Assembly: GCA_020832345.1 (NCBI GenBank)
Contig: JAFIEY010000207.1
Location: forward strand, 1 to 38,785
Direction: 5' to 3'
Origin: Cryomorphaceae bacterium
Lineage (GTDB): Bacteria; Bacteroidota; Bacteroidia; Flavobacteriales; Schleiferiaceae
Length of the DNA stretch: 38,785 nt
Positions 4,952-38,785 of the stretch are shown piece by piece. The notes under the pieces were generated by a model, which did not search any database, was not told the origin of the DNA, and saw only the letters and a program-made list of their open reading frames with translations. Position numbers and translations under genes: made by a program. Position 1 is the first letter of the stretch, and the number at the start of each line of letters is the position of its first letter.

Positions 4952-4985
4952 CTGTGTGCGATATTCATCTTAAAAAGCGCATTTG

Positions 4986-5663
4986 ATGCACAGGCTTTTA
5001 ATTTTAGTTGTGTTCCTAACCATGGTGAGAAGCGGTTTTGGACAATTTTTACCTACGAATTTCGAATGGGGTGTTTCGTTAGGCAATATGGTTTACAATG
5101 GTAATTTTACGCCAAATCCCGATTTTAATTCCCTAGTTTCTGAGCAAGGACCTCGTTTTGGTTTTTTTACGCGGTACAATATGCACCACAGGGTGAATTT
5201 TGGCGTTGAGGTAAATTACGGAAATTTCCACTTAGATGATGCGAACCACGGCAGACCTGAACGAGGTGTTCAAGTAACTACACACGTTTTTAATGCCAAC
5301 GCCGCTTTTGAATTACATTTGCTCGCCTATCGTCCCTATAAAAAGTTGAGAAAAGTTTACACCTTTTCTCCATACTTTAAATTTGGAGGTGGCATTAATT
5401 TTTTCAGTCCCGTTATGCGGGATTACGGAATGATAGATCTGGGAAATACCGCTTTATATCCATATAGTTACGCATCATTTAATGTCTTTGGCGGTGGTGG
5501 TCTGAAATTCCGTATTTCCAAAAAAAACAATCTTTCATTGGAAATGGTAATTCATCACGCAAATGCGAGGAATATGGCGGGAATTACCCCCAATCCAAAC
5601 CCTTCGCAATTTAGCGACTTTTACGGCGGGGCAATGATTCATTATACCTGGTTGATTTTTTAA
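4986..5663 (+). CDS. outer-membrane beta-barrel protein, second of a tandem pair (DUF6089-like)
   Basis: 225 aa from the ATG at 4986 (an in-frame TTG directly before it is the less likely start). N-terminal signal peptide of about 19 residues ending GFGQ. The mature protein follows the same plan as the upstream paralog: EWGVSLGNMVYNGNF, RFGFFTRYNM, DDANHGRPERGVQV, SPYFKFGGGINFFSP and a barrel-like C-terminus ending HYTWLIF. It has its own well-formed promoter at 4921-4951. The stop codon TAA (5661-5663) originally overlapped the stop of the convergent lysC gene; a MITE-A copy was inserted 5 bp after it. Function unknown; outer-membrane location inferred. Confidence 0.75.
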   Translation: MHRLLILVVFLTMVRSGFGQFLPTNFEWGVSLGNMVYNGNFTPNPDFNSLVSEQGPRFGFFTRYNMHHRVNFGVEVNYGNFHLDDANHGRPERGVQVTTHVFNANAAFELHLLAYRPYKKLRKVYTFSPYFKFGGGINFFSPVMRDYGMIDLGNTALYPYSYASFNVFGGGGLKFRISKKNNLSLEMVIHHANARNMAGITPNPNPSQFSDFYGGAMIHYTWLIF

Positions 5664-5668
5664 TTGCT

Positions 5669-5793
5669 GAGTCCACTATAAAAAGGATGATTTCAATCAA
5701 AATCGAGGGGATTTTTGAACCGGAACAAGTGAGGATTCAAAAGTCTATCGACAAGGAAGATTTTGGCAGAAAGGGACTTTGTAGAGCAGACTC
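5669..5793 (+). mobile_element. MITE-A copy 4, inserted into the 3' end of lysC
   Basis: 125-bp form lacking the central CTAACCAGCTGTTAG. It begins GAGTCCACTATAAAAAGGAT and ends GTAGAGCAGACTC, flanked by ATTGCT at 5663-5668 and 5794-5799, a 6-bp target duplication. Read on the minus strand it supplies the last 18 codons and the stop of lysC. It separates the convergent second barrel gene and lysC, and its hairpin could act as a two-way terminator (inference). Confidence 0.9.
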
Positions 5794-7044
5794 ATTGCTT
5801 GCGGCTATTTGCCAAACCTTTGGCGTTACCTGCTCCATTCTAACGACTTTCCCGGCTATAAGTGTTTTACGTGTTTCTTCAGTGTAATGCCTGATGGTAA
5901 ATAAACTAACATCTGGTATAAATTCAACATCGAATAGGCGTTCGAGTTCCTTCAGCACCAATGGCGTTATGACAGGATCATTATTAATACAAAACCTGGA
6001 ACTTACAGCAGAGTTCTGCATGAGATTGACCCGTACGCCCAACCTGTGGAAAATATCGTAAATCGCACTGAGGTTTTCCTCTACAATAAAAGCCAAATCT
6101 CGTGTACTGATTTTGATGATACCCTGTTCGGTTTTGCGGATAAAAATAGGTAGGGCAGGGTATAGGTCAACACCTTGACCTATGCAGGTGCCTTGGCTTT
6201 CAGGTTGTAAAAATGATTTAACACGAAGGGGTATGTTTTTTCTTTGAAGCGGCTGAATGGTTTTTGGGTGGATTACGGATGCACCGAAATACGCCAGCTC
6301 AATGGCTTCGCGATATGAGATTTGTTCAATTAGGGTAACGTTGTCAAATACCTTGGGGTCGCCATTTAGTATTCCCGGAACGTCCTTCCAAATACAAACA
6401 TCGTCGGCATTTATGGCATAGGCCACGATTGATGCGGTGTAATCTGAACCTTCTCTGCCGAGCGTGGTGGCGTGTAAATTGTCGTCCGAACCGATAAATC
6501 CCTGAATAACGTAGTTTTGATTGGGTTTTATGGTTTGCTGCAAAAGGGTTTCGGTAAAAGTCCAATTCACCCTGGCAAATCTGTGATTTGCGTCCGTCTT
6601 TATTAATTTTCTCGCATCAATCCAATGGTTTGTCCAACCCTGATCGTTGAGGTATGCAGAAATGATACGGGTGGATACAATTTCCCCGTAACTAACAATG
6701 CGGTCGTAATTGACATTATAATCGGGGTCAGGCCGACCGGAACAAATTAATCGAATTTGCGTGAAAACATGTGCAACCTCTTGATAAACTAGATGTTCTC
6801 TGTGAGGGAACAATGCCTCCATGACGGAAAGGTGATCGTCTTTTATTTTCTCTAAAATTTCTTGCCAACCATTTTCTTCCCGAAAAAAAGCCGCAACAAT
6901 TTGTTCCAGGGCATTGGTCGTTTTTCCCATAGCAGATACCACCACGACAATTGGATTTTCACCGTGAATACGCAATACGCGTTCAACATTTCTAACGCCT
7001 TCAGCATCTTTGACGGAAGCGCCCCCAAATTTAAAAACTCTCAT
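5737..7044 (-). CDS. lysC: aspartate kinase (monofunctional), C-terminus supplied by a repeat
   Basis: Phosphorylates aspartate, the first step toward lysine, methionine and threonine. The N-terminal KFGGASVKDA motif (residues 5-14), VVVVSAMGKTTNAL, the LGREGSDYTAS segment and VCIWKDVPGILNGDP are characteristic of the kinase domain; residues about 300-415 form the regulatory ACT region. It is monofunctional, with no homoserine dehydrogenase domain. The last 18 residues (from ESALQ to the end) plus the TGA stop come from a MITE-A insertion. Removing the element and one ATTGCT repeat restores an end at Ile-Ala-Ala-Ser-Asn-stop. The tail lies beyond the ACT region, so activity is probably kept. 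It follows lysA by 5 bp in an operon. Confidence 0.94.
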   Translation of the reverse strand: MRVFKFGGASVKDAEGVRNVERVLRIHGENPIVVVVSAMGKTTNALEQIVAAFFREENGWQEILEKIKDDHLSVMEALFPHREHLVYQEVAHVFTQIRLICSGRPDPDYNVNYDRIVSYGEIVSTRIISAYLNDQGWTNHWIDARKLIKTDANHRFARVNWTFTETLLQQTIKPNQNYVIQGFIGSDDNLHATTLGREGSDYTASIVAYAINADDVCIWKDVPGILNGDPKVFDNVTLIEQISYREAIELAYFGASVIHPKTIQPLQRKNIPLRVKSFLQPESQGTCIGQGVDLYPALPIFIRKTEQGIIKISTRDLAFIVEENLSAIYDIFHRLGVRVNLMQNSAVSSRFCINNDPVITPLVLKELERLFDVEFIPDVSLFTIRHYTEETRKTLIAGKVVRMEQVTPKVWQIAASNESALQSPFLPKSSLSIDF

Positions 7045-7049
7045 GGTGG

Positions 7050-8282
7050 TTAAAGTTCTATTTCTACCTGGTTGGCCAGCAAATCTTCAAAATTTTGCCT
7101 CTTGGTAATGAGGTAGTCTTTTCCTTTATGAATCAAAACTTCAGCGGGTTTTAACCGTGAATTGTAGTTTGAAGCCATGGTGTATAGGTAGGCTCCGGCA
7201 TTGTGAAAGCAAAGGATATCTCCTTCGCGAATTTCACTGATTCTGCGGTCCCAGGCAAAGGTGTCTGTTTCACAAATATATCCTACAACTGTGTAAACCC
7301 GGTCGTTGCCTTGCGGATTGCTGATGTTGGTGATGTGGTGGTAGGCATCGTAAAACATGGGGCGAATAAAGTGATTGAGTCCGGTGTCTATACCGGCAAA
7401 TACAGTTGCAGTGGTGTGTTTCACTACATTTACTTTGGCCAAAAAGAATCCACTTTCGGAAACGAGAAATTTACCGGGTTCAAATTCAATGGTCAATTTT
7501 TTTCCGTATTCTACAAAGAATGCTTCCATAAGCTCAGTCATTCTTTCACCCAAACGCTCTACGTCTGTGGAGAGGTCATCCGGTTTGTAGGGCACTTTAA
7601 AACCACTTCCGAAGTCTATGTAGTCGAGATTGGAAAATTGTCTGGCGCTTTCGAGCAAAAGTTCCGCCCCGTTGATAAATACATCAACATCGAGGATGTC
7701 GGAACCGGTATGCATGTGAATGCCGTTAACATGAATGCCGTAACTTTCAACAATGCGCTGTAAGTGGCGCATTTGATGTATTGAAATACCGAATTTAGAA
7801 TCGATGTGTCCGGTGCTGATTTTGGTGTTTCCCCCCGCCATAATATGCGGATTCATTCGTACACATACCGGATAGGTTCCGCCATAGGTATTGCCAAATT
7901 GCTCAAGAATAGAGAGGTTATCTATATTGATTCGAACGCCAAATTCTACCGCACGCTTAATCTCCTCAAAAGAAACGCAGTTGGGCGTAAAAATAATTTC
8001 TTCAGGTTTGAAGCCCGCGTGTAATCCGAGCTGAACTTCCTCAATAGAAACGGTATCAAGCCCTGCGCCCAATTGCCGGAAAAACCTCAAAACATTGATG
8101 TTAGACAATGCTTTGCAAGCGTAATTAATGTGAATGTCCAATTTGGAGAAAGCCCGTTTCAAGCGTTTGTACTGCTTTTCCATTTTGTCGGTTTGATAGA
8201 CATAAATAGGAGTGCCGTACTTTTGGCTCAGGTCTAAAAGTGACTGAGCATCAACTTGAAATGCTTTTTTTTGTTGTGACAT
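7050..8282 (-). CDS. lysA: diaminopimelate decarboxylase
   Basis: PLP-dependent decarboxylase that makes L-lysine from meso-diaminopimelate. The PLP lysine is Lys57 in NYACKAL. Other family marks are the HMHTGSD segment, DFGSGFKVPY, EFEPGKFLVSESG (family EPGR/EPGK), GYICETDTFAWDR with the active-site Cys, and FHNAGAYLYTMASNYNS near the C-terminus. Length 410 aa is normal. It is transcribed first in a lysA-lysC operon from a TACTTTTG -7 box at 8306-8313 and is divergent from the acyl-CoA synthetase gene. Confidence 0.96.
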   Translation of the reverse strand: MSQQKKAFQVDAQSLLDLSQKYGTPIYVYQTDKMEKQYKRLKRAFSKLDIHINYACKALSNINVLRFFRQLGAGLDTVSIEEVQLGLHAGFKPEEIIFTPNCVSFEEIKRAVEFGVRINIDNLSILEQFGNTYGGTYPVCVRMNPHIMAGGNTKISTGHIDSKFGISIHQMRHLQRIVESYGIHVNGIHMHTGSDILDVDVFINGAELLLESARQFSNLDYIDFGSGFKVPYKPDDLSTDVERLGERMTELMEAFFVEYGKKLTIEFEPGKFLVSESGFFLAKVNVVKHTTATVFAGIDTGLNHFIRPMFYDAYHHITNISNPQGNDRVYTVVGYICETDTFAWDRRISEIREGDILCFHNAGAYLYTMASNYNSRLKPAEVLIHKGKDYLITKRQNFEDLLANQVEIEL

Positions 8283-11808: not shown

Positions 11809-11944
11809 GAGTCCACTCTAAAAAGGATGATTTCAATCAAAATCTAGGGAGTTTTTGAACCGGAGCTAACCAGCTGTTAGTGAGGATTCAAAAGTCTATA
11901 GACAAGGAAGATTTTGGCAGAAAGGGACTTTTTAGAGCAGACTC
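11809..11944 (+). mobile_element. MITE-A copy 5, flanked by AATCTTA direct repeats
   Basis: 136-bp full form beginning GAGTCCACTCTAAAAAGGAT, with central GCTAACCAGCTGTTAG and ending TTTTTAGAGCAGACTC. A perfect 7-bp duplication AATCTTA flanks it (11802-11808 and 11945-11951). The left copy overlaps the stop of the FISUMP gene and the right copy contains the minus-strand stop of the DPP IV gene, so the insertion point was the junction of two convergent stops. Confidence 0.92.
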
Positions 11945-24635: not shown

Positions 24636-26108
24636 ATGCTACAATTGATCAAACATTCCTTTTTGGCAGCCATCCGCCGGCGATTTAAGCGCGGAGAATG
24701 GGGCTTAAAGTTATTGCTTGGATTTCTGATCATGTACTTTGGCGTCGCATTTTTCCTTTTGGGGTGGTTGGTATTGCCAGAATTGGCAAAACAAAATATA
24801 ACGGATTCGGTTTCCGCAATTGATTTGAGCGCCCGGTTTATCATTTTCTATGTTGTATCGGATATTCTCATGCGCTTCTTTTTCCAGCCCGCATCATCGG
24901 TTGAATTGCGACACTATGTGCTCCTTCCCATTTCGTATCGAAAATTAATTCATTACATGATGGGGCGCTCGATGTTTAATTTCTTCAACCTCTTGGCCCT
25001 CTTAATAATTTTACCCTTTGCCTATAAACTCATTTTGCCAAATCACGGCGCATTGACCACGAGTTTTTGGCTTTTTGGATTCCTTTCAATCCTGGTTGGA
25101 AACACACTTATTTCCGCATATTTTAAAAGGTTATTTGCCGGAAATTTTCGCGCAGCCATCCTTATGATTGTTGTCGTTATCGGTATTTTTGCTGTTGAGT
25201 TAATTGAAGGTGTATCTTCATTGCACATTTCCGAAAAGGTATTTGGATTTGTATTTTCCGGCCCCTTAGCCATTGCTTTATTAGCTTTTCCCGTGTTGGG
25301 CTATCTCCTTCAACATCGCTTTTTGATGCAACATCGATATGCTGAACAATGGCAGGAATCCGGCGAGGATCAGAGGTTTTGGAATCTTTTGGAATTTTCT
25401 GCAAAAGGGAAAGTTTCTGCTCTGGTCGCCAACGAATGGAATTTAATGATTCGTCACAAAAGAACCCGAACACTTCTTTTGTTTTCCAGCATTTTCCTTT
25501 TCTACGGAATGATTTTTTACAATAGAACCACCGGAGAAGGCAGCGCTATGGAAATATTTGTGGGCATTTTTATCACCGGTTTTGCCGCATTCAATTATGG
25601 CCAGTTTTTAGGCGCTTGGGAAGGTCGATATTTCGACGGAATTTTTTCCAGAAATATTTTTATAGAGGACTTCTACCGGGCTAAATTTCGCCTTTTGGCC
25701 GGACTTATGGGCTTTTCATATCTATTGTCATTGGTTTACGGATTTATGGAAATACGTTTAATTTATCTGCATACGGCTTGCTTTGCTTTTAACCTGGGTC
25801 TCAACAGTTTCCTGTTGCTATTCTTCTCTACTTATCAGCGAAAGCCGTTGGATCTCAGTGCCGGGAGTGCCTTCAATTATCAGGGCACCTCGGCTCTGCA
25901 GTTCCTCATCCTTATCCCATTGATTATTTTACCCATTTTTATTTATATCGCGGTGAAAATGTTTTTTGGCATGTATGCAGGCTACCTCGCGGTTGGTTTG
26001 GTTGGCTTGTTAAGTCTAGCTCTTTCACGCTTATGGATCAAGGGTGTTTCCGATAATTTCCGAGAAAAAAAATATGTCATGGCCGATGGTTTTAGACAAA
26101 AAGAATGA
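24636..26108 (+). CDS. DUF5687 family ABC transporter permease
   Basis: 490 aa, highly hydrophobic with about ten to twelve membrane helices and an N-terminus (IKHSFLAAIRRRFKRGEWG) typical of DUF5687 proteins. These are membrane components encoded next to an ABC ATPase in Bacteroidota; the substrate is unknown. The ATPase gene follows at 26238. MITE-A copy 7 lies between them: the TGA stop uses one base of the gene (26106) and the first two bases of the element. Without the element and one repeat the gene would still stop at the same codon. Confidence 0.85.
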   Translation: MLQLIKHSFLAAIRRRFKRGEWGLKLLLGFLIMYFGVAFFLLGWLVLPELAKQNITDSVSAIDLSARFIIFYVVSDILMRFFFQPASSVELRHYVLLPISYRKLIHYMMGRSMFNFFNLLALLIILPFAYKLILPNHGALTTSFWLFGFLSILVGNTLISAYFKRLFAGNFRAAILMIVVVIGIFAVELIEGVSSLHISEKVFGFVFSGPLAIALLAFPVLGYLLQHRFLMQHRYAEQWQESGEDQRFWNLLEFSAKGKVSALVANEWNLMIRHKRTRTLLLFSSIFLFYGMIFYNRTTGEGSAMEIFVGIFITGFAAFNYGQFLGAWEGRYFDGIFSRNIFIEDFYRAKFRLLAGLMGFSYLLSLVYGFMEIRLIYLHTACFAFNLGLNSFLLLFFSTYQRKPLDLSAGSAFNYQGTSALQFLILIPLIILPIFIYIAVKMFFGMYAGYLAVGLVGLLSLALSRLWIKGVSDNFREKKYVMADGFRQKE

Positions 26109-26161
26109 GTCTGCTCTAAAAAGTCCCTTTCTGCAAAAATCATCCTTTTTAGAATGGACTC
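26107..26161 (-). mobile_element. MITE-A copy 7 (55-bp end-to-end form), flanked by AAGAAT
   Basis: Starts GAGTCTGCTCTAAAAAGTCC and ends CATCCTTTTTAGAATGGACTC, that is, the right end joined to the left end, in reverse orientation. Internal sequence between the two AAATC blocks is missing. AAGAAT direct repeats lie at 26101-26106 and 26162-26167. It forms a hairpin between the permease gene and its ABC ATPase and may dampen read-through. Confidence 0.9.
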
Positions 26162-37654: not shown

Positions 37655-38070
37655 TTTTTAAATTGATTGGTTTAATTGAATAGAGGGAGGGTTTTGGTTG
37701 CTCTTGTGCCCTGAGCTAAAGCACAGGGCAATTATTTCGGACGCTCCTTACCCACAGGTTAAAACCTAGGGCAATTATTTCGGGCGCTCCTACGGAGCTA
37801 GTAGGTGATGATTTGGGGTAAATAAAAGTGCAGGGTAGGGTATTTAGTCGCTCCTTACCCCAGATTAAAACCAAGGCCAATTATTTCGGACGCTCCTAAG
37901 GAGCTAGTAGGTGAGGTTTTGGGATGAATTAGAGTGCCGTAGGCACGATCTAAATAATTGCCCCGAGCTTTAGCTCGGGGATTAAGGGATTAATCAAATC
38001 CCCATAAGCTCCGTAGGAGCGTCCGAAGATTAAAGTTATTTTAATATATTTGTAACCAAAATCCTGCATT
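37655..38070. repeat. REP-like hairpin cluster in a 416-bp spacer
   Basis: Six short perfect inverted repeats: TGCCCTG/CAGGGCA (37707-37730); GCTCC/GGAGC at 37786-37798, 37892-37904 and 38008-38020; GTGCC/GGCAC (37934-37946); CCCCGAGC-TTTA-GCTCGGGG (37961-37980). The phrase AATTATTTCGG(A/G)CGCTCC occurs three times on the plus strand and its complement (GGAGCGTCCGAA) once before the transposase fragment. This is the layout of REP/BIME sequences beside a REP-associated tyrosine transposase. No gene is visible here. Confidence 0.75.
38045..38052 (+). promoter_or_regulatory. -7 box TATATTTG before the transposase fragment
   Basis: Exact TAnnTTTG match 18 bp upstream of the TTG start of the transposase fragment. 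No -33 element at the expected distance. Confidence 0.35.
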
Positions 38071-38388: not shown

Positions 38389-38444
38389 GGTTATATTTTT
38401 TGGTGGTGATGCTTTTTACCTCAACTCAAAAAAAAACTTATGTG

Positions 38445-38785
38445 TTTTCTATGTGCCTATGTGGTAAAAAAAGAACCGCGAAGTGGTTTCCCAAACCACA
38501 TAGACACATAGAGCACATAGAAGTTCACATAGGGTTATTATAAAACGCTAAGTTTTTTAACCACAAAGGAGACGCAGAGTTTCGCAAAGCGTTTTTCTAT
38601 AAAAACTTATGTTTTCTATGTGCCTATGTGGTAAAAAAAGAACCACTTCGTGGGTCCCAACCACATAGACACATAGAGCACATAGAAGTTCACATAGGGT
38701 TATTATAAAACGCTAAGTTTTTTAACCACAAAGGAGACGCAGAGTTTCGCAAAGCGTTTTTCTATAAAAACTTATGTTTTCTATG
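38445..38785 (+). repeat. 166-bp tandem repeat, two units plus start of a third (cut by window)
   Basis: Unit 1 is 38445-38611, unit 2 is 38612-38776, and the third begins at 38777 and runs off the window. Each unit has CTATGTGCCTATGTGGT facing ACCACATAGACACATAG (16 of 17 complementary), repeated CACATAG words, and a second inverted pair AAACGCT/AGCGTTT around AACCACAAAGGAGACGCAGA. Units are nearly identical except in the hairpin loop. Similar ACCACAAAGG and CACATAG repeats are common in Bacteroidota intergenic regions. No ORF is supported. Confidence 0.85.

Follow-up and report, generated by a model that had tools for sequence, protein, structure and literature searches.

A MITE insertion at overlapping convergent stop codons has very probably extended an aspartate kinase by 18 residues

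In the analysed window (the whole stretch of DNA, 38,785 nt), the aspartate kinase gene lysC (5737-7044, − strand) and a gene for an outer-membrane beta-barrel protein (4983-5663, + strand; DUF6089, PorG-like and below the PorG cut-off) converge on a 125-nt MITE copy (5669-5793, + strand), which differs at 3 positions from the consensus of 20 sampled 125-nt copies. The terminal inverted repeats of this copy are 17 nt long and imperfect (left, 5669-5685, + strand; right, 5777-5793, − strand), with the family consensus GAGTCYRCTCYAAAAAG. On either side of the element stands one copy of the target-site duplication ATTGCT (5663-5668 and 5794-5799). The first base of the left duplication doubles as the final base of the barrel stop codon; the barrel gene ends TGG TTG ATT TTT TAA on the + strand, its last residues ...YTWLIF and its stop lying outside the element.

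The lysC frame enters the element at its very first base, i.e., the first base of the right terminal repeat on the − strand. The junction DNA reads ...ATAGCCGCAAGCAAT followed directly by GAGTCTGCT..., the second part starting with the first base of the element, and the protein now ends ...QIAASN followed by ESALQSPFLPKSSLSIDF. Translation of the lysC frame on the − strand places the 18 tail codons wholly inside the element (5793 down to 5740) and the stop codon TGA at 5739-5737, such that tail and stop together span 5737-5793 (− strand) and LysC has 435 amino acids, compared to 417 in the reconstructed pre-insertion gene. The initial annotation, according to which the frame runs into the repeat and gains 18 residues and a stop, matches the DNA base for base, with the right coordinates. 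A peptide spanning the LysC stretch IAASNESALQSPFLPK would mean that the tail is made. When the element and one ATTGCT are removed, the − strand reads GCC GCA AGC AAT TAA (...AAS-N-TAA), where the TAA is the complement of 5660-5662. The accompanying claim, that this deletion restores an AASN-TAA end overlapping the TAA of the barrel gene, agrees with the exact reconstruction: both stops fall in the TTAA at 5660-5663, the barrel stop TAA at 5661-5663 on the + strand and the former lysC stop TAA at 5662-5660 on the − strand (reconstruction by eye). For the site as reconstructed, rather than seen in a sister strain, overlap of the presumed pre-insertion convergent stops of the two genes within TTAA is confirmed.

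By its sequence features, the element is a non-autonomous, high-copy MITE. In the 4.03-Mb genome, the pattern of the right end (at most 2 mismatches) has 491 matches (250 + 241), compared to 0 for the reversed control, and the repeat density is about 1 per 8 kb. Many dispersed copies were found, mostly in length classes of about 55, 84, 125, 131, 136 and 142 nt, with no transposase gene inside and with the 17-nt consensus ends on both sides, mismatches being present. Among 75 distinct copies (20-nt flanks), 38 have a perfect 6-nt target duplication, whereas the flank pairs, shuffled 500 times, gave a mean of 1.8 and a maximum of 8; duplications of 5 nt were found in 4 copies, of 7 nt in 1, and of 4, 8 or 9 nt in none. 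With ATTGCT on both sides, a high-copy family and 6-nt duplications far above the shuffled flanks, the insertion with target duplication that had been proposed for this locus is well supported. The 20 sampled 125-nt copies lie at distances of 1 to 13 from their consensus. Of the 60 genomes searched at E 0.001, 5 contain family matches, namely, the own genome, G002 (3 matches), G003 (8), G009 (at least 15, with 14 of 89 candidates scored) and G054 (one weak match). No mention of this family by name was found in the literature searched, which was covered in part. Copies of the 142-nt class (e.g., L069:318-459) carry an open stretch, ATG ATT TCA ATC AAA ATC GAC GCG GAG GGG ... (by eye), which could be the remnant of a lost protein gene.

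The LysC protein was searched for in 60 genomes, the own genome included, of which 57 matched. We read the LysC end to the stop at 29 loci, one per other genome and the best of the search, with 27 further matching genomes lying outside this set. The tail is present in 0 of these 29 relatives, in which LysC is 411-424 residues long from the match start (query residue 1 or 2). The three nearest relatives end close to the reconstructed AASN end: LysC has 417 residues from residue 2 in both G002 (...AVSNE) and G001 (...AVSGG), one residue past the reconstructed end in each case, and 416 residues in G003 (...AAK). A scan of 23 named lysC loci, including a second copy in G003, shows that all stop 414-430 codons after the match start, without the tail; among the named records, the nearest are metagenome assemblies that bear the label Cryomorphaceae or Flavobacteriales. 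The initial annotation had called for an alignment of LysC from relatives lacking the repeat, and the tail is absent from both of these sets, which partly overlap. A tblastn match in G002 (locus L136) to query residues 2-435 resembled a conserved tail and was rejected: the stop lies 417 codons after the match start, the score of the alignment beyond it is reached by 43% of 1000 tail shuffles, and in BLASTP, the portion preceding the stop aligns no further than query residue 418. There remains a small chance that the ancestral protein ended in E, as the closest relative ends SNE and the tail also begins with E, although the GAG codon of the latter derives from the element end. Besides lysC itself, a search of the own genome with LysC gave six weak matches, each of which touches the C-terminus of the query; two of them (C156:4866-4934 and C99:11891-11968) overlap known repeat copies.

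The exact empty lysC-barrel site was sought in the genomes of the relatives and not found. In the congeners G001 and G002, the neighbour after lysC is a different gene (by eye), the barrel homologue being on a separate contig. In G015, lysC faces a distant barrel gene (26% identity) in convergent orientation across a gap of 94 bp and lacks the tail, an arrangement that is suggestive, no more, of an old lysC-barrel neighbourhood. Comparison of the lysC loci for repeat remnants gave scores of at least 30 solely at the own locus and at L049 (G009, contig C177), where a relic of the repeat family lies shortly after the lysC stop (34 nt aligned, score 38, 0 of 500 shuffles above 25). LysC ends normally at L049, which belongs to a different genus from the own genome, and the relic probably stems from an independent insertion at this gene end.

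LysC is identified as an aspartate kinase by TIGR00657 (269.1 bits, cut-off 208.7) and also matches PF00696 (154.5 bits); the score for NF006570, the lysine-sensitive aspartokinase 3 equivalog, is 271.3 bits, below the cut-off of 455. The predicted LysC fold, modelled from 23 sequences with a mean pLDDT of 88.9, resembles aspartokinases over their length (e.g., 2j0x_B, TMq 0.79; 3c1n_C, 0.84), including E. coli AK III with lysine. The last strand of the model comprises residues 410-417, and residues 420-435 have pLDDT below 50; no other sequence in the structure alignment covers the tail, and this alone reduces confidence in that region. The reconstructed enzyme of 417 residues is therefore predicted to end already with the last strand, and the tail is predicted to be disordered. 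The earlier placement of the tail after an allosteric ACT region holds for its position behind the regulatory region; the name ACT comes from the predicted fold and the structure matches, given that Pfam at E 0.001 names the kinase domain and reports no ACT family for LysC. Directly upstream of lysC lies a decarboxylase gene (7050-8282) with domains of the diaminopimelate/ornithine-decarboxylase type, which probably makes lysC the second gene of a pair. Most likely, as the model would suggest, the extension that closes this lysA-lysC-like gene pair is tolerated and near-neutral.

We further surveyed the stop codons around 110 copies, which lie in the window and 40 stretches from the own genome; the sample comprises 805,834 bases, comes mostly from long contigs and is non-random, and only ORFs of at least 100 amino acids were counted as genes. 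A gene 3′ end lies within 40 nt of the edge or inside the element in 48 of the 110 copies. With each gene end counted separately, the stop has its final base at offset −5 in 9 cases, −4 in 4 and +2 in 6. Only two genes among the 110 copies take more of the element into their frame: lysC, with 57 nt, and a 128-aa ORF at L084, with 22 nt. One of the 110 copies is located inside an ORF (118 aa, L117). The target resembles TAA-W-NN-W-TTA, and in 36 perfect sites away from gene stops, the frequencies of A at position 1 and T at position 6 are both 0.94. Because these far sites share their motif with 22 perfect near-stop sites (TAA at −1 to 1 in 25 of 72 vs. 16 of 44 sides), the target preference appears to go beyond a mere shadow of stop codons. 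Stops at −5 or −4 were found in 11 of the 110 copies (expected 3.0%, binomial tail 5 × 10−4; the lysC copy is counted here via its barrel side), at −3 to +2 in 12 (expected 1.9%, 2 × 10−6), and at −40 to −6 in 24 (expected 10.7%, 6 × 10−4), where the expectations were taken from the far-site motif and are lowered by missed small genes, and the classes were picked after viewing the data. The excess of stops at insertion edges is accordingly indicative only, and part of it seems to be general near gene 3′ ends and unspecific to the stop itself, since the −40 to −6 class is in excess as well. In 5 of the 6 cases with a junction TGA (+2), at least 5 of the 6 duplication bases are kept, and the pre-insertion codons are TGA, TAA, TAA, TAA and TAG; the sixth case has no duplication and the pre-insertion codon TAT. 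Loss of gene-truncating insertions accounts for the stop pattern at least in part.

We then read the three frames into the element from both ends of each of the 110 copies (220 ends), with T assumed throughout as the last base of the duplication. The first frame meets an immediate TGA in 208 of the 220 ends, and the second stops after 4 codons in 90 ends (median 7), whereas in the third, the stop comes after at least 18 codons, or there is none within the element, in at least 187 ends. The lysC stop started one base past the duplication, which is why this gene reads the third frame. In the frame of lysC, the 125-nt consensus encodes ESALKSPFLPKSSLSIDF and a stop, which differs from the lysC tail by one residue, indicating that the tail is generic to the family. 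It is conceivable, although we consider it doubtful, that the family is tuned to gene ends in a kind of ‘soft landing’, in which the target carries a stop for each strand, the GA at the start of the element rebuilds TGA whenever the first T of a stop is hit, and the second frame commonly stops after a few codons. If this were true, some 490 copies could build up with few altered proteins, and lysC would be the exception of one frame.

Taken together, these findings make it very probable that insertion of a MITE at overlapping convergent stops extended LysC by 18 residues, most likely with a near-neutral outcome. A non-autonomous MITE, mobilised in trans by a presumed transposase, would have landed in TTTTTTA-ATTGCT-TGCGG, at the overlapping stops of lysC and the barrel gene, and duplicated 6 bp, the family apparently favouring A at position 1 and T at position 6 of the target, with TAA/TTA at its borders. 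The barrel stop would have survived, being before or within the duplication; elsewhere, the last T of the duplication and the GA would make TGA. The lysC stop, one base later, would have been displaced whole, leaving lysC to read the longest-open frame of the element end, 18 codons to a TGA, in a tail that follows the last ACT-like strand and is probably unstructured. That the junction itself is false, with the repeat joining the wrong flanks in assembly, is very improbable: there are about 490 copies, many of them highly identical, several contigs including this one start inside a copy, and the barrel gene is not beside lysC in the congeners, but the identical 6-nt duplication on both sides is rare in shuffled flank pairs, both genes read exactly across the reconstructed site, and the right flank alone yields the tail even if the left flank were false.

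The tail might also be retained for an effect on the feedback or stability of LysC, through the ACT-ACT interface or the dimer. Its direct attachment to the last ACT-like strand of the model, and an intact frame in an element that departs from the consensus at just 3 of 125 bases, would be consistent with such a role, which we nevertheless regard as improbable given that the tail is predicted to be disordered and is the generic end of the family, one residue from ESALKSPFLPKSSLSIDF; moreover, it is known from one genome only, which precludes a measure of selection. Somewhat less improbable, albeit still unlikely, is an effect at the RNA level, whereby a hairpin at the end of the lysC mRNA and, on the opposite strand, after the barrel gene would alter termination or mRNA stability, the tail being incidental. 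Compared with dinucleotide shuffles, the element has the more favourable folding on both strands (z = −3.40 for the lysC strand, matched by 1 of 200 shuffles, and z = −2.40 for the opposite strand, matched by 4 of 200), and the proximity of gene 3′ ends in 48 of the 110 sampled copies points in the same direction. However, such folding is expected from terminal inverted repeats alone, and no Rfam family reaches its gathering score in 5000-6500. The preferred reading remains a near-neutral extension by insertion.

A search of the own genome for four transposase families found PF01609 at 6 loci and PF13751, PF13586 and PF00872 at 0, and no autonomous element with the same ends was found among these families. 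End-like matches near the 6 PF01609 loci occur at L091 only, where a MITE copy lies about 1.2 kb from the domain, together with one weak match (at most 3 mismatches). This locus, the best DDE_Tnp_1 locus, at the start of contig C96, was rejected as the partner, its own ends being different (CAGGGCA..., by eye). A scan of 35 relatives with the terminal-repeat pattern gave matches in 7, and no transposon was recognised at these matches or at unpaired ends of the sampled stretches.

MITE-supplied C-termini have already been published, and lysC adds a case. EnhC is another kind of protein than LysC and is not known to be a biosynthetic enzyme. In the Dugway strain, the last 33 EnhC residues are ascribed to QMITE2, with the stop immediately downstream, in the available part of PMC5896051; as in LysC, the C-terminus is MITE-derived, in another organism and from another element. 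The RU-1 enterobacterial repeat fused to the amidase ECA3499 is, as far as the consulted portion of its description goes (Delihas 2007, PMC2759123), a small mobile repeat that, like that at lysC, took away the normal stop of a conserved enzyme and added C-terminal residues past its conserved domain; RU-1-type repeats make TA duplications there, in contrast to the 6 bp and the GAGTCYRCTCYAAAAAG ends of the lysC family. MITEAba12, in the excerpts at hand from PMC6382973, is IS-derived and about 113 bp long, and one copy fuses 31 bases to the 3′ end of a gene and provides the stop; it differs in its 9-bp duplication and known partner IS, and the protein concerned is 398 residues shorter than its counterpart in another strain, whereas LysC is 18 residues longer. 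Correia/NEMIS, RUP and RPE, by their description in the sections consulted of a review (PMC2229807), resemble the lysC MITE in high copy number and small size, some with gene-fused open frames. Joint preservation of stops by target and repeat end was not met in the consulted parts of these four papers, the literature being covered in part. What the sampled copies suggest as new here is a target motif combined with mostly surviving nearby stops, which are preserved ahead of or inside the duplication or re-formed as TGA by its final T and the GA of the element. The locus offers a base-resolved case of a mobile repeat altering the end of a core metabolic enzyme, and the sampled copies suggest why altered ends are rare here: target and repeat end jointly tend to preserve stops.

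Further repeats were observed in the window. A 55-nt short form at 26107-26161 keeps the TGA stop of the ORF at 24636-26108 at the same place, and the copy at 11809-11944 separates two convergent ORFs whose stops are 5 nt and 4 nt away from it. Within 1-352, the contig starts inside a copy, and two more copies, of 56 nt (155-210) and 136 nt (217-352), come after it; contigs C13, C18 and C66 likewise start inside copies, and the repeat thus seems to break the assembly. Two other repeat families are present at 37709-37980 and 38443-38785, with 80-nt units that have nearby inverted arms and a unit at about 165-nt spacing. The own genome (G000) has 4.03 Mb, compared to 2.3-2.6 Mb in four congeners, and about 490 repeats of about 115 nt each would account for some 1.4% of it.
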